Assembly: GCF_000506985.1 (NCBI RefSeq)
Contig: NZ_KI650983.1
Location: 1 to 64,000 of the forward strand
DNA: 64,000 nucleotides
Source: Advenella kashmirensis W13003
GTDB lineage: Bacteria; Pseudomonadota; Gammaproteobacteria; Burkholderiales; Burkholderiaceae_B
Reading direction: 5' to 3'
Positions 1,859-53,281 of the stretch are shown here, in pieces (position 1 is the stretch's first letter; each line of letters opens with the position of its first letter). The notes below the pieces were generated by a model, which saw only the letters and a program-made list of their open reading frames with translations, was not told where the DNA came from and did not search any database. A program made the position numbers and the translations under genes.

Positions 1859-3895
1859 TTAATAGGTCATATTCAGATTGAGCCAATAGCGACGACCGTC
1901 CTCGACTGCCCAGTTGCCGGCCGTATCAATGCCATACATGCGCTGGTTGCCAATATTGAGGACAGCGAAACCCACCGTCAGATTTTTATTAACCTGATAA
2001 TTGCCGCCTGCATCTGCAGTCATGAACCCGCTGCGATACCGGGTTCCCCCTTTACCGCCGAAGCCATTGCGCTGGTTGGCCCAGGCCTGCTTGCCGCTGT
2101 ACGCAGCCTTTACATATACATCGAGGCTGTCGCTGGCCTGCCAGGAAAGTTTTGCGCTCGCACTGTGTCTGGGCGTCATTTCCAGAGGCTGCCCCTTGAG
2201 CGATTCGCCGGAGGTATAGGTTTCGTCATCGCTTTTGCGTTTGGAGTCCAAATAGGTGTAATTGACATCCAGTTTCAGGCTGGTGGTGATGGGCATACCG
2301 GCAGCCAGTTCAATGCCTTTGATATTGGCCTTGCCGACGTTGGCATACACATAATTGTTCAGGCCACTGACCGGGTCCTTATCACCGGTGGAATAACTGG
2401 TGAGTTTGTCACGGAAATCGGTATTGAAAAACGTGACCGACGCATGATAGCCATCGGGATCGCGATACTCAAAGCCGATCTCCTGGCTGGTGCTGGTTTC
2501 CGGCTTCAGATCGGGGTTGCCATAAATAATGCCGCGACCACCTTCGGTCGCAGTTCCGTAATTCGGTGACAGCTCACGCAAGCCCGGTGTACGAAAACCT
2601 TTTGAAATCCCCCCGCGCACGGTAAAGCGGGAACTGGGGTGATAAACCAGATATGCGCGCGGGCTCCAGTGCACCCCATACTGTTCATGATCGTCCATGC
2701 GGGCGCCCAGCGTCAGAGCCAGATTGTCCCGAAGCGCGATTTCGTCTTCGACAAACAGGGCGTACTGGTTCATATTGATTTTGCCCGGCACCGTGCGCTT
2801 CAGGCCTGTTGTGCTGTCGTCCCGGAGCCGGCCTCGCTGATATTGTCCTCCAAACGTCAGCTTGTGTACCGAGAATGGCACAACAAAGCGGGCATCAAAC
2901 ACCGTTTGGGTAATCTCTGGCCTGCGACTGTCATAAACGCCGTCATTGCGCACTTCACGTTTGGCATTTTCCTGATAGACACTCAGTTCAGAGGTCATGA
3001 CGTTCCAGTCGCCGGTATGCGTCAACGACCAATGATTGCGACTGCCGATGGTGTCATCCTGCGTATTGGCTTTGATTGATGTTCCCCTTGCCGTATAGGC
3101 ATCGATGGATTTTCCTGGTGTACTGCGGCGCTTTTGCACTGAGCGCCCTGCTTCCAGAATAACGCGCTGGTTGTCTGTCGGCAACCAGGCAAAACGCGTC
3201 ACGATATTTTTGTCCTCATGTCGGTTGTAACCGCCAACGATACGGTCTTCCCCACGAATATTGCCGCCCCCGTATATCTGAACGCCCAGCTTATTGTCGA
3301 CCAAGGGCCCCGACAGAAAAAAGCTGCTGTTGGCTGTGTTGCCGGCATCCCCGCTTTCCTGAAGAATCCCTCCAAGAGACAGGCTGCCAGTCCATTCTGG
3401 CGTAAAGTCCTTGGTAATCACGTTGACAATGCCGCCCATGGCATCGGAACCGTAGAGCGAAGACATCGGACCGCGCACGACCTCAATGCGTTCAATCGCC
3501 GCCATGGGCGGCATAAAGCCGGCTTCAAATCCGCCGCTGCCGTTCGGCCTGGATTCCCGCGTGTTCTGGCGCCTGCCGTTGACCAGCAGCAAGGTGTAAT
3601 CCCCGGACAGGCCGCGGATGGAAATGTCCGATTTACTCGGATTGCTGCCGACAACATTGATTCCTGGAATATCACGTATAGCATCGGTCAGATTATTCAC
3701 CGGCATGTGCGCCAGTTCGTCCTGCTCAATGACCGTCACACTGGCCGGCGCATCGCTCACATTTTGTGTGGAGCCGGACGCGCTTACAACAATGGGTTCC
3801 AGTGTGGTCGACTGAGTCGCCCCGGCAGCTGCTGCCACGCCGGGTACGAATGCCCCGGCGACCGCCAGGCTCAGGATGGAACAACTGCACTTCAT
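1859..3895 (-). CDS. TonB-dependent outer-membrane receptor, catecholate siderophore type
   Basis: Outer-membrane receptor of 678 aa for energy-dependent import of a ferric siderophore. Residues 1-25 form a signal peptide (MKCSCSILSLAVAGAF..., cleavage near AAAAGA). A TonB-box-like EPIVVSA is at about 33-39, followed by the plug domain with VNGRRQN and RIEVVRGPMSSLYGSDAMGG, then a beta-barrel ending in an aromatic residue (NLNMTY) as barrels usually do. The plug resembles the FepA/PfeA/IrgA group. An upstream in-frame start at 3979 exists, but the ATG at 3895 has AAGGGAAG just before it and the signal peptide directly after it. A Fur-box-like palindrome lies 57 bases upstream. The neighbouring esterase supports a siderophore that is hydrolysed to release iron. 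Ligand unknown. Confidence 0.88.
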   Translation of the reverse strand: MKCSCSILSLAVAGAFVPGVAAAAGATQSTTLEPIVVSASGSTQNVSDAPASVTVIEQDELAHMPVNNLTDAIRDIPGINVVGSNPSKSDISIRGLSGDYTLLLVNGRRQNTRESRPNGSGGFEAGFMPPMAAIERIEVVRGPMSSLYGSDAMGGIVNVITKDFTPEWTGSLSLGGILQESGDAGNTANSSFFLSGPLVDNKLGVQIYGGGNIRGEDRIVGGYNRHEDKNIVTRFAWLPTDNQRVILEAGRSVQKRRSTPGKSIDAYTARGTSIKANTQDDTIGSRNHWSLTHTGDWNVMTSELSVYQENAKREVRNDGVYDSRRPEITQTVFDARFVVPFSVHKLTFGGQYQRGRLRDDSTTGLKRTVPGKINMNQYALFVEDEIALRDNLALTLGARMDDHEQYGVHWSPRAYLVYHPSSRFTVRGGISKGFRTPGLRELSPNYGTATEGGRGIIYGNPDLKPETSTSQEIGFEYRDPDGYHASVTFFNTDFRDKLTSYSTGDKDPVSGLNNYVYANVGKANIKGIELAAGMPITTSLKLDVNYTYLDSKRKSDDETYTSGESLKGQPLEMTPRHSASAKLSWQASDSLDVYVKAAYSGKQAWANQRNGFGGKGGTRYRSGFMTADAGGNYQVNKNLTVGFAVLNIGNQRMYGIDTAGNWAVEDGRRYWLNLNMTY

Positions 3896-4979: not shown

Positions 4980-6443
4980 ATGAGTGGACACATTCTGATT
5001 AACGTAACGCCGTTTGAAACCCGCGTCGCCCTGATCGAGCAAGGCGTGGTGCAGGAAATCCATCTGGAACGCACACGACAGCGCGGCAAAGTCGGCAACA
5101 TCTATCTGGGACGTGTCGTAAGAGTATTGCCAGGCATGCAAAGCGCCTTTGTCGATATCGGTCTGGAACGTGCTGCCTTCATACACATTGCCGACCTGCG
5201 CGAAAACCGCGCGCTGCGCAACACGGGTATTCCATACACGCAGATCGAAAAATTGCTGTTCGAAGGGCAAACGTTGCTGGTACAGGTCATCAAAGATCCG
5301 CTGGGCAACAAGGGCGCGCGTCTATCCAATCAGATCAGCATTGCCGGTCGCATGCTGGTGTATTTGCCCTTTGATAATCATGTCGGCATTTCCCAGAAAA
5401 TCGAATCCGAAGAAGAGCGCACCTCACTGAAGGAGCGGGTCATCGCGCATATGCCCGAGGAAGAGAAAGGCGGTTATATCATCCGCACCCAGGCCGAAGG
5501 GGCGAGCGACGACGAGATCCGCCGAGACCAGGAATATCTGGCGCGCCGCTGGTCCATGATTCAGGCCGCGGTCATGACGCAGGCAGCACCGTCTTTGCTT
5601 TATGAAGATCTGACGCTGGCGCAGCGCGTGCTGCGCGACATGGTCAGTCCCGAAACAGAATCCATCGAAATCGATTCGCGTGTGACGGTGCAGGCCCTGC
5701 AAACCTGGGGCGATATCTATACGCCCGGTATCTCAAACAAGATCAACCATTATCATGGCGAGCGCCCCCTCTTTGATACCGCCAATGTTGATGAAGAAAT
5801 CAAATCAGCGCTGTCGCGCAGAGTTGATCTCAAATCGGGTGGCTATCTGATTATCGACCAGACTGAAGCGCTGACCAGTATCGATGTGAACACGGGCGGC
5901 TTTGTGGGCGGTCGCAATTTTCACGATACGATTTTCAAGACCAATCTGGAAGCGGCCCATGCCATTGCCCGGCAGCTGCGCATTCGCAATCTGGGCGGCA
6001 TTATCATCATCGACTTTATCGATATGGACAATAAAGTCCATCAGGATGCCGTGCTGGCCGAACTGCAGAAGGCGCTGAGCCGGGATCGTACCAAAACAAC
6101 AGCCAATGGTTTTTCAGCGCTGGGGCTGGTTGAAATGACCCGCAAGCGCACGCGCGACTCTTTGTCGCACCAGCTGTGCGAACCCTGCCCCACCTGCGAT
6201 TCGCGTGGTCAGATCCAGACGCCGCAAACCATGTGCTACAACATTCTGCGTGAAATTCTGCGGGAAGCCAGGCAGTTCAATCCCCGCGAGTTCCGGTTGA
6301 TTGCCTCGCAAAGCGTGATTGATCTGTTTTTGGAAGATGAGAGCCAGTATCTGGCGACGCTGGGTGATTTTATCGGCAAACCGGTGACGCTTGAGGTGGA
6401 TACCCGGTATTCCCAGGAGATGTACGATATCGTCCTGATCTAG
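4980..6443 (+). CDS. rng: Ribonuclease G
   Basis: Endoribonuclease of the RNase E/G family, 487 aa, the usual RNase G length without the long disordered tail of RNase E. It matures the 5' end of 16S rRNA and cuts some mRNAs. An S1 RNA-binding domain spans about residues 35-120 (GNIYLGRVVRVLPGMQSAFVDIG). The catalytic acids are visible as D302 in SIDVNTGG and D345 in DFIDMD, and the zinc-link cysteines as C403 and C406 in CEPCPTC. It is transcribed away from folE. Its stop codon TAG forms the loop of a perfect 10-bp hairpin (6431-6453). Confidence 0.95.
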   Translation: MSGHILINVTPFETRVALIEQGVVQEIHLERTRQRGKVGNIYLGRVVRVLPGMQSAFVDIGLERAAFIHIADLRENRALRNTGIPYTQIEKLLFEGQTLLVQVIKDPLGNKGARLSNQISIAGRMLVYLPFDNHVGISQKIESEEERTSLKERVIAHMPEEEKGGYIIRTQAEGASDDEIRRDQEYLARRWSMIQAAVMTQAAPSLLYEDLTLAQRVLRDMVSPETESIEIDSRVTVQALQTWGDIYTPGISNKINHYHGERPLFDTANVDEEIKSALSRRVDLKSGGYLIIDQTEALTSIDVNTGGFVGGRNFHDTIFKTNLEAAHAIARQLRIRNLGGIIIIDFIDMDNKVHQDAVLAELQKALSRDRTKTTANGFSALGLVEMTRKRTRDSLSHQLCEPCPTCDSRGQIQTPQTMCYNILREILREARQFNPREFRLIASQSVIDLFLEDESQYLATLGDFIGKPVTLEVDTRYSQEMYDIVLI

Positions 6444-6453
6444 GATCAGGACG
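6431..6453. terminator. Perfect hairpin whose loop is the rng stop codon
   Basis: CGTCCTGATC, then TAG, then GATCAGGACG form a perfect 10-bp inverted repeat. The 3-base loop is exactly the rng stop codon. The hairpin also lies 14 bases past the stop of the convergent gene at 6468. No T tract follows on either strand, so an intrinsic terminator in the strict sense is doubtful; it could protect the 3' ends of both transcripts or slow polymerase. Confidence 0.5.
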
Positions 6454-6467
6454 AAGAAGAAGACCGA

Positions 6468-37446: not shown

Positions 37447-39085
37447 GCGCAGCAATCGCCCACGCGTGGCCGTGGTGGGTGCCGGATGGGCGGGCCTGGC
37501 AGCGGCATGGAAACTGGAACAGGCGGGCTGTCGGACCGACGTCTTCGAACAGGCGCCCGTACTCGGCGGGCGCGCCCGCAAGGCGCTTATCCCGCGTCGC
37601 AATCTGGTACTGGACAACGGCCAGCATCTGATGCTGGGCGCATACGGACAGATATTGGCCCTTATGCAGGAGATCGGCATTGATCTGGATAAGGCATTGC
37701 TGCGATTGCCGCTGCAACTGAACTCACTGAATAAACAGTTCGGCTTGCGCGTGAATCCCGCGTATCCAGGCCCACTGCGCCTGCCGCTGGCGCTCGTGCG
37801 CCTGAAGGGGTTGGCTGCCCGCGAAAAATTTGCGCTGGTCCGCGCACTATTTCAATTGCAATTGGCTGGCTGGCGTGTCGAACCGGCGCTCTCGGTAAAG
37901 GCTTGGCTGGACGCGCAACGTCAGCCTCCTGCCCTGAGAGATCTCTTCTGGGCACCGCTGTGCATCGCCACGCTCAACACGCCATTGGCACAGGCCTCGA
38001 TGGCCTTGTTTGCCCGTGTTCTGAAAGACAGCCTTGGCGCAGGCGCCGAGGCCTGTGACCTGATTCTGCCTCGCGTCGACCTGAGTACCCTGTGGCCGCA
38101 AGCACTGGCGCGCCGATTGACGGTGCACACCAATACACCCGTGCGCGGCATCACGTATACGCAAGATGGCTACACCGTGCAGACCGGCAGGCGGAAAAAA
38201 AACGCAGATATGAGTGGGAGTACGAATGGGGGATGTGCGAACGGCGAGCATGCGAACGGTGGGGGGGCGAACGCCGGAAATGCGAATGACGAAAATGCGA
38301 CGACATTCGATGCAGTGGTCCTGGCGACTCCCCCGCTTATTTGCCATCGCCTGCTTGCACGCCTGTCACAAGGTGGTACTCACGATCTGTCCGACGGTTC
38401 GCGTGCGTCCGTTCACGGCGCTGTGATACAGGCCGGTGATGGGACGCTTTCACCCATGGATCCGAACGGCGTCGCACCCCTGCTGGGACAATTGCAGGCA
38501 TTTCAATACCATGCCATTGCAACGCTGACGGTCTTTCTCGCAGCTCCCTTCCCTCTGCATGAATGCATGTATATGCTCAATGAAAATCGGGCGCTCGGAC
38601 ATGACGGCCAGTGGCTGTTCAACCGAAGCCGCTTCATGCACCCTTCTGACAATCCCAGCGCCGGTATGGCGAACGACGACTCCGCATGCGCCCGCGACGC
38701 TGAAGAACCTGCCAGCAACGTAAATGAGGACCATCATCACGCCATTTCAATCGTGATAAGTCATGCCGATCATCTGGTCGGAGCAGATAAAAATACGATT
38801 GCCAGTGCCGTACTTGACCAGATCAGCAGCCAGCTGCCCGACGGACTGTCGCTCCCCGCCGTGCTCGGCCATGAACTGATCATCGAAAAACGCGCTACCT
38901 TTGCCGCGACGCCCCAACTGGCGCGACCAGGCAATCGCACGCCATGGCCTGGGCTGTTTCTGGCGGGAGACTGGACAGATACCGGATATCCAGCGGTGCT
39001 GGAAGGCGCCGTCATGAGCGGCATCGCCGCAGCAAAGGCGGCCCATGAATTTATTGCCGCTCGGCGACAGCGGCAACATCGGTAG
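37430..39085 (+). CDS. hpnE: Hydroxysqualene dehydroxylase HpnE with low-complexity insertions
   Basis: FAD-dependent enzyme that reduces hydroxysqualene to squalene. The FAD-binding VAVVGAGWAGLAAAWKLEQ lies at about 13-31 and the C-terminal FAD segment is GLFLAGDWTDTGYPAVLEGA. At 551 aa it is about 100 residues longer than usual. The excess sits mainly in two hydrophilic inserts: about 258-292 (Asn/Gly/Ala-rich, from imperfect gcgaacg-type repeats at 38205-38310) and about 405-435 (acidic and His-rich). Both look like surface loops, so the enzyme may well be active. No squalene-hopene cyclase gene is in the window. Confidence 0.88.
   Translation: MFRQTERSNRPRVAVVGAGWAGLAAAWKLEQAGCRTDVFEQAPVLGGRARKALIPRRNLVLDNGQHLMLGAYGQILALMQEIGIDLDKALLRLPLQLNSLNKQFGLRVNPAYPGPLRLPLALVRLKGLAAREKFALVRALFQLQLAGWRVEPALSVKAWLDAQRQPPALRDLFWAPLCIATLNTPLAQASMALFARVLKDSLGAGAEACDLILPRVDLSTLWPQALARRLTVHTNTPVRGITYTQDGYTVQTGRRKKNADMSGSTNGGCANGEHANGGGANAGNANDENATTFDAVVLATPPLICHRLLARLSQGGTHDLSDGSRASVHGAVIQAGDGTLSPMDPNGVAPLLGQLQAFQYHAIATLTVFLAAPFPLHECMYMLNENRALGHDGQWLFNRSRFMHPSDNPSAGMANDDSACARDAEEPASNVNEDHHHAISIVISHADHLVGADKNTIASAVLDQISSQLPDGLSLPAVLGHELIIEKRATFAATPQLARPGNRTPWPGLFLAGDWTDTGYPAVLEGAVMSGIAAAKAAHEFIAARRQRQHR
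38205..38310 (+). repeat. Imperfect short tandem repeats inside hpnE
   Basis: About 105 bases contain repeated units such as gcgaacgg, gcgaacgc, gcgaatga and acgaatgg at spacings that are multiples of 3, mostly 12 to 18 bases. They encode an Asn-Gly-Ala-rich stretch with repeats like CANG, HANG, GANA, NAND and ENA. The reading frame of hpnE is preserved throughout. The pattern suggests expansion by slippage. Confidence 0.7.
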
Positions 39086-39203
39086 CGCCGGCGAGATCTG
39101 CTGCATCAGCACTTCAGCTATATCAGCACTTCGGCAGCATCCGAGGCAATGGCGGCACCGTCGGCCACTCATGTGAGCCGCCGTCATCCCTGAACAGCTC
39201 TGT

Positions 39204-40982
39204 CTACCGGCCTGACCGACCTTTGCGCCCCATCAATGCAGTGCGATCATGGGTTTCGCTATTTAGCCGCTGGCGTACACGCATCAGATCTTTCCACCCG
39301 ATATAACCGACCAGTGATCCGTCGGTACGGGAAACGACCGGCAAGTGTGCGACATTGGCATGCACAAGCTTGTCCACCAGACCCGCCAAATACTCGTCGG
39401 GATACGCCAGCGTTATTTTTTTCCCGCGCAATAGTTGTTCCAGCGTCTGATCGCGATGCTCACCGGCGCGCCGCCAGGCCAATACCGATGGTGGATCCAC
39501 AATCCCCAGCACCTGGCCCTGCTCATCAACCACCGGAAAACTCGGATGGCGGGTATCGGGCGCAGTCAGGAAACGAACCGCAGCGCGCAGCGTCATGGCG
39601 GCCGGCACGCTGACAACCTGAGCAGTCATCACGTCGCGCACATGCGTCAGCTCAAATGGATCGACGCGATATTCGCGCACAATATGGTGTCCGCGCCGGG
39701 CAATCTTTTCGGTCAGAATCGAGCGCTTCATCAGCAACACCGTCATCGCGTGTGCAGTGACGCAGGCTACAATCAGCGGCAATAAAGCATGGACATTGCC
39801 CGTCAGTTCAACCGCAAAAAAGGTTGCTGTCAACGGCGCACGCATGGTGCCTCCCATCATGGCCGCCATGGCCAGCAAGGCCCAGAAACCCGGACTCGCA
39901 TCCGGCAGCCAGCCGGCCAGCGCCGCGCCCAGGGCACCGCCCATGATCAACAGCGGGGCCAGCACGCCGCCCGAGGTGCCCGACCCCAGCGCCACCGACC
40001 AGATGATCGCCTTGACCAGCAACAGCATAATCGCCGCCACGCCCAGCATCTGACCATCGAGCATGGCCGAAATGTTTTCATAACCCACGCCCAGCGCGCG
40101 CGGATCGACCAGGCCACCAATCCCCACAACCAGCCCGCCAATCATGGGCCACCACATCCAGTGTATCGGCAGCCGCTGGAAACCGTCTTCGCATGCGTAA
40201 ACCAGTTGCGTCAGGACCCCCGACAGCAGGCCGGCAGCAATCCCGATCGCAATCCACCCGGCAAAGCCGGGCAGGCTGGTCATCATCGTGCCGTCGAAAG
40301 GAAACAGCGGTCCGCCCATGCCCATCAGACTGCGTCCGAGCTCAGCCACTGTCGCCGCTACGACCACAGGAATAAAGCTGCGCGGGCTCCATTCGAACAG
40401 CAGCAATTCGACCGCCAGCATGATGGCTGCGATGGGGGTTCCAAACACCGTTGTCATACCGGCAGCGGCACCCGCCACCAACAGCGTCTTGCGCTCATTA
40501 TCGGATACAGGCAACGCCTGTGCGATCAGCGAACCAATGGCGCCTCCCGTCATGATAATAGGACCCTCTGCACCAAAGGGGCCGCCGGTACCGATGGCAA
40601 TAGCCGATGACAATGGCTTTAGGACGGCCACTTTCGCGTCCAGGCGAGAACGGCCCAGCAAAATTGCTTCGATCGCTTCGGGAATGCCATGGCCGCGGAT
40701 TTTTTCACTGCCGTAACGCGCAATCAATCCAATCAGCAGTGAACCCACGACAGGGATACCGACAGACCACAACCCCAAAGAGACGCTTCCCAGCTGCGAC
40801 TCCTCGAATGAAAAACGGCCGAAGTAAGCCAGATTGGTGCATAAGCGGATCAACTGCAAAAGCAGCATGCCGGCGAACATGGCGGCAATGGCCACCGGTA
40901 CGGCAATGCCAATTACAAAAAGTACTCGCTTATCCGTTGAAAAATCGCTGAGCTGACGATTACGGATGTGTTTATTAGTCAT
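39204..40982 (-). CDS. clcB: ClC-family chloride channel/transporter with two CBS domains
   Basis: A 592-aa protein: a ClC membrane domain (about 1-430) followed by two CBS domains (about 450-580: VRDVMTAQVVSVPAAMTLRAAV and YLAGLVDKLVHANVAHLPVV). The anion-selectivity stretch GTGGPFGAEGP keeps the gating glutamate, which suits a Cl-/H+ exchanger or a gated channel. I chose the ATG at 40982; a TTG at 41027 would add 15 residues without homology. It is divergent from the marR gene across a perfect palindrome. The name clcB is by family likeness. Confidence 0.85.
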   Translation of the reverse strand: MTNKHIRNRQLSDFSTDKRVLFVIGIAVPVAIAAMFAGMLLLQLIRLCTNLAYFGRFSFEESQLGSVSLGLWSVGIPVVGSLLIGLIARYGSEKIRGHGIPEAIEAILLGRSRLDAKVAVLKPLSSAIAIGTGGPFGAEGPIIMTGGAIGSLIAQALPVSDNERKTLLVAGAAAGMTTVFGTPIAAIMLAVELLLFEWSPRSFIPVVVAATVAELGRSLMGMGGPLFPFDGTMMTSLPGFAGWIAIGIAAGLLSGVLTQLVYACEDGFQRLPIHWMWWPMIGGLVVGIGGLVDPRALGVGYENISAMLDGQMLGVAAIMLLLVKAIIWSVALGSGTSGGVLAPLLIMGGALGAALAGWLPDASPGFWALLAMAAMMGGTMRAPLTATFFAVELTGNVHALLPLIVACVTAHAMTVLLMKRSILTEKIARRGHHIVREYRVDPFELTHVRDVMTAQVVSVPAAMTLRAAVRFLTAPDTRHPSFPVVDEQGQVLGIVDPPSVLAWRRAGEHRDQTLEQLLRGKKITLAYPDEYLAGLVDKLVHANVAHLPVVSRTDGSLVGYIGWKDLMRVRQRLNSETHDRTALMGRKGRSGR

Positions 40983-41071
40983 GAAAAAAAGGGGCAACAC
41001 AAGCGAACAGGCCTGCCACTCATGCAACTTATTTATATAAAGACGGTGGGGAAAAATAGAGAAGCTGACTA

Positions 41072-41092
41072 TTATATCGTAATACGATATAA
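41072..41092. promoter_or_regulatory. Perfect 10+1+10 inverted repeat between clcB and marR, candidate MarR operator
   Basis: TTATATCGTA and TACGATATAA flank a single A, giving a perfect palindrome with 10-base arms. It lies 66 bases before the marR start and 89 bases before the clcB start on the other strand. MarR dimers bind such short-spaced inverted repeats next to their own genes, so self-regulation and control of clcB are likely. Binding is inferred. Confidence 0.65.
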
Positions 41093-41158
41093 ATTTTCAA
41101 ATCATGATCTGCTACACTGATATTCCCGTTTCTTCCAATCCGCTATTCGTACATCGCT

Positions 41159-41581
41159 ATGCCCGACGACACACTAGACCAATCCGATTACACTGCTCTG
41201 GCCGAATTTCGCTATTTGATACGATGTTTTCTTGAGTTCAGTGAAGAGCGGGCCAAATCCGTTGGGCTGACATCGCGGCAGCATCAGGCTTTACTGGTGA
41301 TCAAAGGTTATGGCAAAGGGGAACCGATTACCGTCGGCACACTGGCCGAGCGCCTGAGAATCAAGCACCATAGTGCGGTGGAACTGGCCAATCGGCTGGT
41401 CGACAGCGACCTGATCGAACGTATCGCCGATGAAGAGGATCAGCGCAAAGTGCTTCTGCAACTGACCCGGCTGGCCGAAAAACAACTGGCATCGCTGTCG
41501 GCGGCACACCAGGATGAACTCTCCCGCATCGAGCCCATGCTCAAACGCGTGCTGGCGCGCGGCAAAAAACAGCGATCATGA
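41159..41581 (+). CDS. MarR-family transcriptional regulator
   Basis: A 140-aa winged-helix protein of the MarR family. The recognition-helix region is TVGTLAERLRIKHHSAVELANRLVDSDLIER, followed by the wing (IADEEDQRKVLLQLT). The effector is unknown. It is divergent from clcB with the palindrome 41072-41092 in between, and its last 6 bases overlap the convergent nnrS gene. Confidence 0.88.
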   Translation: MPDDTLDQSDYTALAEFRYLIRCFLEFSEERAKSVGLTSRQHQALLVIKGYGKGEPITVGTLAERLRIKHHSAVELANRLVDSDLIERIADEEDQRKVLLQLTRLAEKQLASLSAAHQDELSRIEPMLKRVLARGKKQRS

Positions 41582-42805
41582 TTTTTTTTCGGATGGACGA
41601 ATTATCATTCCCGGCGCAACGGGGTTTGCGGTCGGTCGCGGGCTGACAAGAATCGGCACAAAACGGTAGAGGTACAAGCCAAATGCGCCGATCCACGCAG
41701 CGGCAGCCAGATGCAACATTGGCAAGGTCACAGATGGCATGATCAGCGCTGCCACACGAGCCACGGTTGCAAGCACAACCAGAGCGTAGCTGAACACCAT
41801 CTTGCGGTCCGCCTTCAGCGGCCAGCCTGTATGCCCCAATGCAGTACGTGTAATCATGCCCATAATCATCACCGAGAAGCCACCCATGGCAATGACGTGC
41901 ACATAAAGCGCCTGACGGTCCATCCAGCCCGGGTGCCAGCCCATGAAGTAGCAGGCCGCCAATAACAGCCCCGCGCCCAGGAATAACCAGGACAGATACA
42001 ATACCCACAACAAGGGCACGCCGACCACCCTGCCCGGCTTCCATTGAACAAGTTGATACAGGGCAATCGCCCCGGCCACTGCCGCACCCAGGCCCACCAG
42101 CCTATCAAGGCCAGCCACCACCGCAAGCAGGGCCACTGCACAGGCCACCAGTTGCACCAGGCCTGAACGCTGATGCATGGGGATCGTCAATCCGGCAATG
42201 GCCCGGCTTGCAAAAAAGGGAATGACCCGACGTGCAATCAACAGCGCAATGAAAACCATGCACAAAATACCGGTGCGCATGAAGTCGGTCAGCAGCATCG
42301 CCTTGCCCTGTGCAATCGCGAGCACAAACAGAACATGACTGCCTCCCAATAGCAAAACCATCCACGGCAAAACATAGTTGCGCTTACTGCGCGCCCGGAA
42401 AATCACCCGCCAGAGCGCCAGCGCGGCAGTCAGATAAAACAGCGCATCAGCAACCGCGCCCAGTACAAATGCCGCATCGCCTCGCGCCAGATAGGCCATG
42501 CGAGCCACCAGCCAGCACAGCGCCAGCGCACCCAGCGCACCTCCTTTGATCGGATTGATACCCGTCCAGGTTGCACTGGCGGTCGTCAGAAAACCGACGG
42601 CGATGGTGGCGACGAATCCCCACAGCATTTCATGGGCATGCCACCAGACACCATTCAATCTACCGCCCAGCAGATGCGGCGCGAACACCCAGATCGCAAC
42701 GGAAATAAGCGCCCACAGCGAGCCGGCAATATACAGCGGCCGAAACCCCAGGGAGAGAAAGGCCGACAGGGAAAATCGCGGCAATGGCGTGGCAGGTGCA
42801 TTCAT
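41576..42805 (-). CDS. nnrS: NnrS-family heme/copper membrane protein
   Basis: A 409-aa protein with about twelve transmembrane segments and the family stretches GFRPLYIAGSLWALISVAIW, WHAHEMLWGF, HVIAMGGFSVMIMGMITRTALGHTGWPL. NnrS proteins bind heme and copper and protect cells during nitrosative stress. A site resembling the NsrR consensus lies 28 bases before its start, which fits induction by nitric oxide. No nitrite or NO reductase gene is in the window. It is convergent with marR (6-base overlap). Confidence 0.9.
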   Translation of the reverse strand: MNAPATPLPRFSLSAFLSLGFRPLYIAGSLWALISVAIWVFAPHLLGGRLNGVWWHAHEMLWGFVATIAVGFLTTASATWTGINPIKGGALGALALCWLVARMAYLARGDAAFVLGAVADALFYLTAALALWRVIFRARSKRNYVLPWMVLLLGGSHVLFVLAIAQGKAMLLTDFMRTGILCMVFIALLIARRVIPFFASRAIAGLTIPMHQRSGLVQLVACAVALLAVVAGLDRLVGLGAAVAGAIALYQLVQWKPGRVVGVPLLWVLYLSWLFLGAGLLLAACYFMGWHPGWMDRQALYVHVIAMGGFSVMIMGMITRTALGHTGWPLKADRKMVFSYALVVLATVARVAALIMPSVTLPMLHLAAAAWIGAFGLYLYRFVPILVSPRPTANPVAPGMIIRPSEKKS

Positions 42806-42832
42806 GGCGAGAAGACCGTTTCATGGTTATAT

Positions 42833-42855
42833 AATATGCATATTATATACATCTT
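42833..42855. promoter_or_regulatory. Candidate NsrR binding site before nnrS
   Basis: Positions 42833-42855 match the NsrR consensus (two ATGCAT-type half sites, AAGATGCATTT and AAATGCATCTT around a central base) at 18 of 22 defined positions by eye. The left half overlaps a perfect 22-bp palindrome at 42828-42849 (TATATAATATG followed by its reverse complement). The site ends at the promoter region of nnrS, a known NsrR target in betaproteobacteria. Confidence 0.6.
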
Positions 42856-42939
42856 AATAAGAGCCGACCAGCCCGGTGCAGACATCGAATTTGTCATAAA
42901 TCAACGGATGTTCACGCTGGTGCCTGAATACATCTAAAA

Positions 42940-42967
42940 AAAAATCGACCCCGAGGGATCGATTTTT
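42940..42967 (-). terminator. Intrinsic terminator after thrC
   Basis: AAAAATCGA (42940-42948) pairs with TCGATTTTT (42959-42967), with CC/GG pairs further in around a small loop. A runs continue to the left, so the minus-strand transcript ends in a long U tract just past thrC. The T run on the right is shorter, but it could also work in the plus direction. Confidence 0.8.
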
Positions 42968-43005
42968 GTATTGTCTTCGCAGTTAAAGGGCCACTGTCAA
43001 CGCGC

Positions 43006-44439
43006 TCAGGTCAACGCCCGGGCCTTGATATAGTCGCGGATGGCTTCAACGTCATTATCCATGATCACCACTTTCTGTGGCAGATCACTCAACGCCTTAA
43101 GGTGCTCAGGCACGGGAGCGGCGGCGCCGGTGGCTTCCTGAATGGTTTCGCCGAACTTGGCCGGCAGCGCAGTTTCCAGCACCAGCATGGGAATGCCCTC
43201 TTCGACAAATTCCCGCGCCACTTTGACGCCATCTGCCGTATGTGGATCAATCAGCACACCACTCTCCCGCTGCAACCCCGCAATCGTATCGAGCCGATCC
43301 TGGTGGGAGCTGTTGCCCGCCACGAAACCGAACTCCTCGGTAAAGCGCGCTTTCTCTGCGGACAGATCAAATGCCCCGTCCTGATCCAGTTTTTTCCATG
43401 TTGCAGCCAGCCGCTTCGAATCGCGGCCAAGCAGATCAAAGACAAACCGTTCAAAATTGGATGCCTTGGAAATGTCCATGGACGGACTGGACGTCGCCAG
43501 TGTCTCCGCACTTACCCGGGGGCGGTAGATACCGGTATGGAAGAATTCTTCCAGAACGTTGTTTTCATTGGTCGCCAGCACCAGCCTATGAATAGGCAAT
43601 CCCATACGACGTGCAAAATGACCTGACAGAATATTACCGAAATTGCCCGAAGGGACTGTGAACGATACCTTGCTGCCCGATACGTCGGCGCCGCTACCGG
43701 CGGCCTCGTCGGTGCTGCGCAACCAGGCCCAGAAGTAATACACGATCTGCGCGCAAATGCGGGCCCAGTTGATGGAATTGACTGCACCCAGATGGTACTG
43801 GCTCTTGAAGGTCACATCACCGGCCAGCGCCTTGACGATATCCTGGCAATCATCGAACACGCCCTTGACCGAAATATTATGAATATTTTCATCCATCAGC
43901 GAATACATCTGGGCGCGCTGAAAGGCGCTCATGCGACCATGGGGCGACAGCATGAACACCGACACGCCAAGTTTGCCCCGCATGGCGTACTCGGCCGCCG
44001 ATCCCGTATCACCCGAGGTGGCACCCAGAATATTGAGCTTGCGGCCTTCACGCGCCAGCACGTATTCAAACACCTGTCCCAGAAACTGCATGGCCAAATC
44101 CTTGAATGCCAGCGTCGGCCCTTCGGACAGCCCGACCAGCGTCATGGCATCGTTCAGCGGTTTGAGCGGCACAATCTCGCTGCCGGAAAAAACCGATTCG
44201 TTGTAGGCTGCCTTGCAAATGCGCTCCAGATCGACTCGTGGAATATCGTCAATGTACAGGCCCAGAATTTCCGTCGCCAGCTCTGCATAAGATAAGGAAC
44301 GCCAGGCCTCAAGCTGTTTGGCGCTGACCGATGGAATACTTTCGGGCACGGCCAGTCCGCCATCGCGGGCCAGCCCTTCCAGCAGGATCTCGGAAAATGA
44401 AACCGGGCTCATACCGCCACGGGTCGAAATATATTTCAT
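43006..44439 (-). CDS. thrC: Threonine synthase
   Basis: Converts O-phosphohomoserine to threonine with PLP. The 477-aa protein has the PLP lysine at K113 (TLAFKDLAMQF), the phosphate loop in GATSGDTGSAA and the SGNFGNI segment. It belongs to the longer, gamma-subunit-like class of bacterial enzymes. The ATG at 44439 has GGAG 6 bases upstream. It is the last gene of alaC-hom-thrC and is followed by a terminator. Confidence 0.94.
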   Translation of the reverse strand: MKYISTRGGMSPVSFSEILLEGLARDGGLAVPESIPSVSAKQLEAWRSLSYAELATEILGLYIDDIPRVDLERICKAAYNESVFSGSEIVPLKPLNDAMTLVGLSEGPTLAFKDLAMQFLGQVFEYVLAREGRKLNILGATSGDTGSAAEYAMRGKLGVSVFMLSPHGRMSAFQRAQMYSLMDENIHNISVKGVFDDCQDIVKALAGDVTFKSQYHLGAVNSINWARICAQIVYYFWAWLRSTDEAAGSGADVSGSKVSFTVPSGNFGNILSGHFARRMGLPIHRLVLATNENNVLEEFFHTGIYRPRVSAETLATSSPSMDISKASNFERFVFDLLGRDSKRLAATWKKLDQDGAFDLSAEKARFTEEFGFVAGNSSHQDRLDTIAGLQRESGVLIDPHTADGVKVAREFVEEGIPMLVLETALPAKFGETIQEATGAAAPVPEHLKALSDLPQKVVIMDNDVEAIRDYIKARALT

Positions 44440-53254: not shown

Positions 53255-53281
53255 CAAAGAGCCGGTCAGACCGGCTCTTTG
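53255..53281 (-). terminator. Hairpin terminator between rplI and dnaB
   Basis: CAAAGAGCCGGT (53255-53266) and ACCGGCTCTTTG (53270-53281) form a perfect 12-bp stem with a 3-base loop. On the minus strand it follows rplI by about 30 bases and is trailed by TATTTGTAT, a moderate U-rich stretch. It probably ends or attenuates the ribosomal-protein transcript before dnaB. Confidence 0.75.

Follow-up and report, generated by a model that had tools for sequence, protein, structure and literature searches.

What controls the ClC-type anion transporter gene that stands back to back with a MarR-family regulator gene in Advenella kashmirensis W13003, and is the palindrome between the two genes the site of that control? 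The locus lies in a stretch of 64,000 nucleotides (contig NZ_KI650983.1, positions 1 to 64,000), called the window here, and a first-pass annotation of this stretch had proposed that MarR acts on the transporter gene through the palindrome. Three features are needed from the outset.

39204 to 40982, minus strand: the gene called clcB, a ClC anion transporter of 592 amino acids with two C-terminal CBS domains (Pfam Voltage_CLC 1.4e-78; CBS 1.2e-15, in two stretches).
41072 to 41092, no strand: a perfect 10+1+10 palindrome and predicted MarR operator, as judged by how it is conserved and how it covaries with MarR residue 72 (left arm 41072 to 41081, TTATATCGTA; centre 41082, A; right arm 41083 to 41092, TACGATATAA).
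41159 to 41581, plus strand: marR, a MarR-family regulator of 140 amino acids (Pfam MarR_2 1.8e-13; AlphaFold2 model; Foldseek).

Comparison with related genomes makes it highly probable that the adjacent MarR protein uses the palindrome as its operator and that clcB would be repressed from it. The first-pass annotation had described a perfect 10+1+10 inverted repeat in the divergent gap, placed at a distance suited to repressor binding, and a ClC transporter with CBS domains. The repeat is present letter for letter, the domain matches bear out the transporter, and the spacing also holds: the gap from the clcB ATG (40982, minus strand) to the marR ATG (41159, plus strand) is 176 bp long with 39% G+C, and the palindrome lies 89 bp from the start of clcB and 66 bp from that of marR. 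As a name, clcB fits loosely: with the ClcB-like NCBIfam equivalog model (NF002505, PRK01862) the protein scores 196.8 bits, under the cut-off of 482.

The palindrome is the sole match to itself in the window at up to three mismatches, and 100 shuffles gave none. The exact sequence TATCGTANTACGATA occurs once in the source genome (4.85 Mb in 12 contigs), in the clcB-marR gap, and a regulon search of this genome found no second good operator, the next-best match (one mismatch) lying inside a 393-amino-acid frame. Could the repeat be a chance palindrome or the stem of a terminator? Palindromes with arms of at least 10 occur at four places in the window, the three others being near 6430, 42828 and 53257, and a general repeat finder did not report the one at 41072–41092. 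Chance would nevertheless seldom produce it: 10+1+10 palindromes are expected 0.125 times per 64 kb (first-order Markov model, window composition) and observed twice (the other at 53258), any palindrome with arms of at least 10 and a spacer of 0 to 4 appeared in 2 of 2000 simulations of the gap's composition, and no terminator-like site was found in 40900–41300. Palindromy by itself is suggestive and not decisive, and it is comparison that settles the matter.

The broad comparison used the best 80 MarR relatives among the matches listed in GTDB contigs, which is not a census, with flanks examined up to 3 kb per locus (shorter in L151 and L156; loci carry L numbers). It covers Advenella, Mesorhizobium, other Proteobacteria and two ClC-bearing metagenome-assembled genomes (MAGs), one from Chloroflexota and one from Verrucomicrobiota. 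In 70 of these best 80 relatives marR is divergent from a ClC gene, and the gap holds the motif in 68 of the 70 (at most 2 mismatches of 14), the core T-C-G and C-G-A being invariant in 68/68 sites. Where no ClC gene lay in the flanks the motif was found in 0 of 10 loci, and a reversed control motif in 0 of 80. When Mesorhizobium and its close kin are excluded, the motif stands at 20 of 22 divergent loci. The window, its congener and Advenella sp. S44 have 20 of the 21 palindrome bases in common, in a gap that has otherwise diverged in large part (identity to the Advenella relative is 80% for MarR and 91% for the ClC). Conservation beside clcB-marR orthologues, which the first-pass annotation had left to comparison, is therefore what these loci display, and a site conserved across divergent genomes between diverged flanks makes the chance or terminator explanation hardly credible.

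Does the site belong to clcB or to marR? In the family, MarR homologues at E ≤ 1e-10 occur in 43 of 151 genomes, and 30 of the 47 matches were examined as loci. In 12 of the 30, clcB lies within about 1.5 kb of marR, and ATATCGTNNNACGATAT stands upstream of clcB in all 12 with no or one mismatch. Seven of the 12 are divergent as in the window; in the other five both genes point the same way with marR first, and 5/5 of these have the motif in the interval between the two genes and none before marR. Among the other 18 loci, L031 has the motif at one mismatch, L009 (with a tctA gene beside it), L012, L014 and L017 have it at three, and 13 only at four or more; a serA-like frame, named from L022, precedes marR in 9 of the 13 loci without a good motif. 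ClC homologues were taken at E ≤ 1e-100, and 30 of 34 matches were examined, the remaining four being at 43–45% identity. The motif is present at 0–2 mismatches in 16 of 17 orthologues at 54–100% identity, including L161, L163 and L166, which have no marR in the locus and MarR matches elsewhere in the genome; the 17th, L167, has no motif, and its genome has no MarR match. At 48–49% identity (n=6), L178 has the motif at one mismatch and five ClCs lie downstream of marR with a changed motif, and the paralogues examined at 40–45% (7/7) lack the motif as well as a marR in the locus. In the window's own genus, two of seven genomes have both genes and five have neither at the thresholds used. The operator thus appears to stay with clcB when gene order changes. 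These loci bear on the explanation that the site serves marR autoregulation and that clcB is a bystander. According to the available part of PMC6391409, MarR-family genes are often divergent from their targets with a site between them and both genes controlled; in addition, a site precedes marR in L031, where no ClC is in reach, and two loci of family f27 have one before a Yip1-marR operon. However, the same-direction loci place the site before clcB and not marR, the unlinked clcB genes retain it, and the ClC-less loci of the broad set lack it, and we regard a bystander role for clcB as very improbable.

Whether the adjacent MarR protein reads the palindrome is addressed by two features inside marR.

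41366 to 41404, plus strand: predicted recognition helix, marR codons 70–82 (DSSP on the AlphaFold2 model, H70-82).
41372 to 41374, plus strand: marR codon 72 (Ser), which tracks operator base 6 by covariation.

The protein exceeds the cut-offs of MarR_2 (50.8 bits; cut-off 27) and MarR (31.8 bits; cut-off 24.6), and its AlphaFold2 model, with a mean predicted local distance difference test score of 90.6, matches MarR-family structures in Foldseek, DNA complexes included. All seven matches to named NCBIfam MarR subfamilies (HpaR, Saro_0803, BilQ, AdcR and others) are under cut-off, HpaR reaching 30.9 of 121.2 bits. Residue 72 is the third position of the predicted helix, whose label as recognition helix is taken from the usual MarR fold. 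At the five marR-clcB loci whose motif is changed, the half-sites read TATCAC (once TATCAC/TATCAT), and the recognition helix of their MarR has HHG or SHG, versus HHS, PHS or PHT elsewhere; L076, a sixth MarR with HHG that was checked afterwards, has TATCAT. We scored 211 loci by the nearest TATC-N7-GATA from −1300 to +1200 of marR, a rule that was set after the site list had been seen and that may have picked some sites by chance. It gave a scorable site at 132 of 211 MarR loci, and the 128 symmetric ones all fit residue 72 (81 Ser/Thr, 47 Gly). With Gly72, 47/47 sites have A in both halves (TATC-A), 30 further Gly loci being siteless; with Ser/Thr72, 81 of 85 have G in both halves (TATC-G), and 49 further loci are siteless. 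The four asymmetric sites all go with Ser72 (G/T in L073, T/G in L190 and L269, G/A in L196), and some strictly siteless loci, such as L007, L026 and L033, have a mismatched site. Among 93 loci examined after the pattern was noticed, which are relatives of the first ones and no independent draw, Gly fits in 42/42 and Ser fits fully in 11/14 and in one half in 3/14. A control palindrome, CTAT-N7-ATAG, occurred once in 0.93 Mb. Over 87 alignment rows, column 72 holds 0.995 of 0.995 bits on operator type, and column 75 comes next with 0.924.

Because the letters of the operator vary in step with MarR residue 72, the adjacent MarR very probably reads the palindrome, and we take this covariation as the most direct evidence for it in our analysis. 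In the SCO3205–DNA complex, three recognition-helix residues contact bases, as described in the accessible portion of PMC3737563. The idea that a different regulator reads the palindrome, with marR close by incidentally, finds some encouragement in two genomes (L041, L042) where the exact motif stands at a HigB-like gene and another regulator is likely; against it, operator base 6 pairs with MarR residue 72 in 128/128 symmetric sites and the motif is missing from the orthologous clcB of the genome without a MarR match (L167), which makes a different reader very improbable. For the history of this pairing we used a tree of 91 rows from which column 72 was left out and in which 47 Mesorhizobium-like rows were thinned to 6. 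On the best tree residue 72 changes at least four times and the symmetric operator type three times, and the Gly clade contains three Ser lineages (family f27, L278 and L196) with a G-type or half G-type site. We lean slightly towards the view that Ser/Thr72 reads TATC-G and Gly72 reads TATC-A, and that this dialect switched more than once, both partners changing each time, within a widespread MarR–ClC unit.

Sites also occur away from clcB. Exact ATATCGTNNNACGATAT is found in 8 of 300 genomes of the order, and the reversed control in 2. Beyond the window it stands at a Yip1-domain gene that shares an operon with a MarR of 41–42% identity (two genomes), at a ClC of 41% identity without marR beside it, at the HigB-like gene already mentioned (two genomes, named by eye) and at two further places. 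In the 42 MarR-bearing genomes the site is present at no more than one mismatch in 31 and the control in 5; 15 of the 31 sites belong to clcB by hand count, which leaves 16 elsewhere versus 5 for the control. Targets other than clcB exist; the link to clcB was the one met most often. We also observed an operator-like site before the Yip1-domain gene in operon with MarR in L036 and L037 (about position 1501) and in L074, L222 and L260, the last three having an additional site about 450 bp past the marR start. In L069, L070 and L071 (about position 1501) a similar palindrome precedes a gene for a cbb3-type oxidase (FixS-COX1 fusion) whose divergent neighbour is OsmC-like, and a similar site is present in L061, where the OsmC side alone was identified. 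L061 and L069–L071 are relatives with a serA-linked MarR. L066 (about 1501–1530) has two palindrome copies that overlap each other and precede a gene which, judged by eye, resembles one for a substrate-binding protein.

Several of our results weigh against the palindrome being the site through which the adjacent MarR represses clcB. The motif is not exclusive to clcB, as it occurs at Yip1-marR operons, the cbb3-type oxidase gene and the HigB-like gene; two of the 70 clc-linked loci of the broad set (L135, L153) are without it; 49 of the best 80 relatives are Mesorhizobium or very close by hand count, so that many are close relatives of one another, and Chloroflexota and Verrucomicrobiota are represented by MAGs. 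As to residue 72, 79 of the 211 MarR loci are siteless under the strict TATC-N7-GATA rule, the forks that nest the three Ser lineages have supports of 83–92 with none starred, the starred branches force one change, and the tree-based test has three independent pairs (one on starred branches), with which no significance is reachable. A Fisher value for the association disregards relatedness and was not relied on. Set beside these points are the deep conservation of the predicted operator, its following of clcB, its absence in the MarR-less L167 and its covariation with residue 72; the MarR control of the ClC gene claimed by the first-pass annotation is, on this comparative evidence, well supported.

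How repression might work is suggested by a putative promoter.

41071 to 41076, minus strand: TATAAT, the −10-like element of a promoter pointing at clcB; it overlaps the edge of the palindrome (consensus match).
41095 to 41100, minus strand: TTGAAA, the −35-like element of that promoter; most of the spacer is taken up by the palindrome.

TTGAAA-18-TATAAT has 11/12 consensus matches with an 18-nucleotide spacer and is the only sigma-70-like promoter found in 40900–41300; it is a consensus match only, in a region whose shuffles give 0.8 promoter-like sites. The palindrome occupies the spacer and covers the −10, a geometry that suits repression of clcB. A MarR dimer would place one recognition helix on each half-site (TTATATCG), and the bound protein would cover the spacer and the −10 and so repress clcB. 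MarR would probably control its own gene too, because the palindrome also sits just upstream of marR, and some signal would release it, upon which the ClC/CBS transporter would be made. Sequence comparison shows the site itself, with its conservation, its link to both clcB and MarR and its residue-72 covariation; binding by MarR, repression rather than activation, autoregulation and release by a ligand are what we infer.

The protein under this predicted control is a ClC by family (Voltage_CLC 264.9 bits; cut-off 24.8), sharing its Pfam family and the gating Glu with the StClC and EcClC exchangers. In the classical Cl-/H+ exchanger Ser107 and Tyr445 form the anion site and Glu203 lies on the proton path. 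None of the equivalents of these three residues is present in the window ClC: alignment with StClC (1kpl) places His98 at Ser107, Leu193 at Glu203 and Leu423 at Tyr445. The replacements are a feature of the group, as aligned positions in the ClCs of the 80-locus set have His98 in 68/68, Leu193 in 60/67 (Val in 7/67) and Leu423 in 67/68 (Met in 1/68), with the gating E139 in 68/68. Three standard residues being missing, chloride selectivity and proton coupling of this ClC are not to be assumed, and the response to acid or anion stress that the first-pass annotation gave as an example is a guess. A fluoride ClC under a riboswitch was considered and rejected, no Rfam family being found at the gathering threshold in 38500–43500.

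Do the neighbours point to the signal? In 18 loci chosen from the 80, a search for a conserved third gene beside marR-clc found only the ClC (15 loci) and marR (14) to recur, plus one group of three frames opposite marR on the other strand; the neighbours therefore do not name the MarR signal. In the window nnrS follows marR convergently, and in L022 a MarR gene comes after serA, near an Rrf2-family (NsrR-like) gene and nnrS, with no clcB in reach (Pfam on L022); L019, L025 and L032 have frames similar to this serA-marR arrangement. A nitrogen-oxide link drawn from nnrS beside marR and from serA-marR-Rrf2-nnrS in relatives was rejected, nnrS being no conserved neighbour in the 18 loci. At 42828–42849, just upstream of nnrS (start 42805), lies a perfect 22-bp palindrome, TATATAATATGCATATTATATA, which together with its right flank resembles an NsrR site (ATGCAT-N5-ATACAT) and would mean nitric-oxide control of nnrS; a pattern with 4-base spacing gave no match. 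Further long palindromes of the window, at about 53256–53280 and at 6430–6454, are possibly terminator-like. In L031 a TM_HPP membrane protein (1962–3173) adjoins marR and is, after the ClC, a second membrane protein with CBS domains next to this regulator; L033 has a similar frame downstream of marR. The rhizobial ClC genes that have been considered in connection with acid stress, such as sycA, are alphaproteobacterial ClC genes (in the accessible parts of PMC5936775 and PMC3557214), and one rhizobial ClC mutant was apparently unimpaired at pH 4.5, as far as the available text of PMC3557214 goes. An acid signal by way of sycA was set aside, the published work being suggestive at most.

A MarR–ClC unit of this kind is predictable in members of the Alpha-, Beta- and Gammaproteobacteria and in a few MAGs of other phyla, and would give a regulatory handle on a ClC group without the three standard functional residues. 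The residue-72 rule, one amino acid against one base pair per half-site, would be a sharp handle on DNA choice by MarR proteins and is the part that deserves specialist attention. A literature survey of partial coverage, hence weak evidence of novelty, brought up no description of a MarR-regulated ClC; the same partial survey gave no match for the operator sequences and no report of a MarR recognition-helix/motif correlation combining all aspects. The closest known systems are PecS-pecM and SydR. In the available part of PMC6391409, PecS-pecM loci have, as here, a MarR-family gene divergent from a membrane transporter gene with one or more palindromic sites in the gap, and the PecS site of Vibrio vulnificus, TATCTTTATATTAAGATA, has a half-site that starts with TATC as here. 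Unlike PecS-pecM, the locus here encodes a ClC with CBS domains instead of an efflux pump, TATC is followed by G (or A), and there is one site where two are common in the accessible text on PecS, whose sites we compared by half-site alone. SydR of Sinorhizobium meliloti is likewise a repressor of the MarR type, with a partner gene transcribed divergently and half-sites of the form TATCG, TATCGCGATA, but in the consulted part of PMC11633110 it has two sites without spacer, senses redox through C16 and has a partner that is not a ClC as far as that part goes; the columns that are invariant in our MarR alignments include no cysteine. The arrangement of a MarR gene, a divergent transporter gene and a putative palindromic operator is thus of an ordinary kind, and comparison across genomes argues convincingly that it is conserved for a ClC gene.
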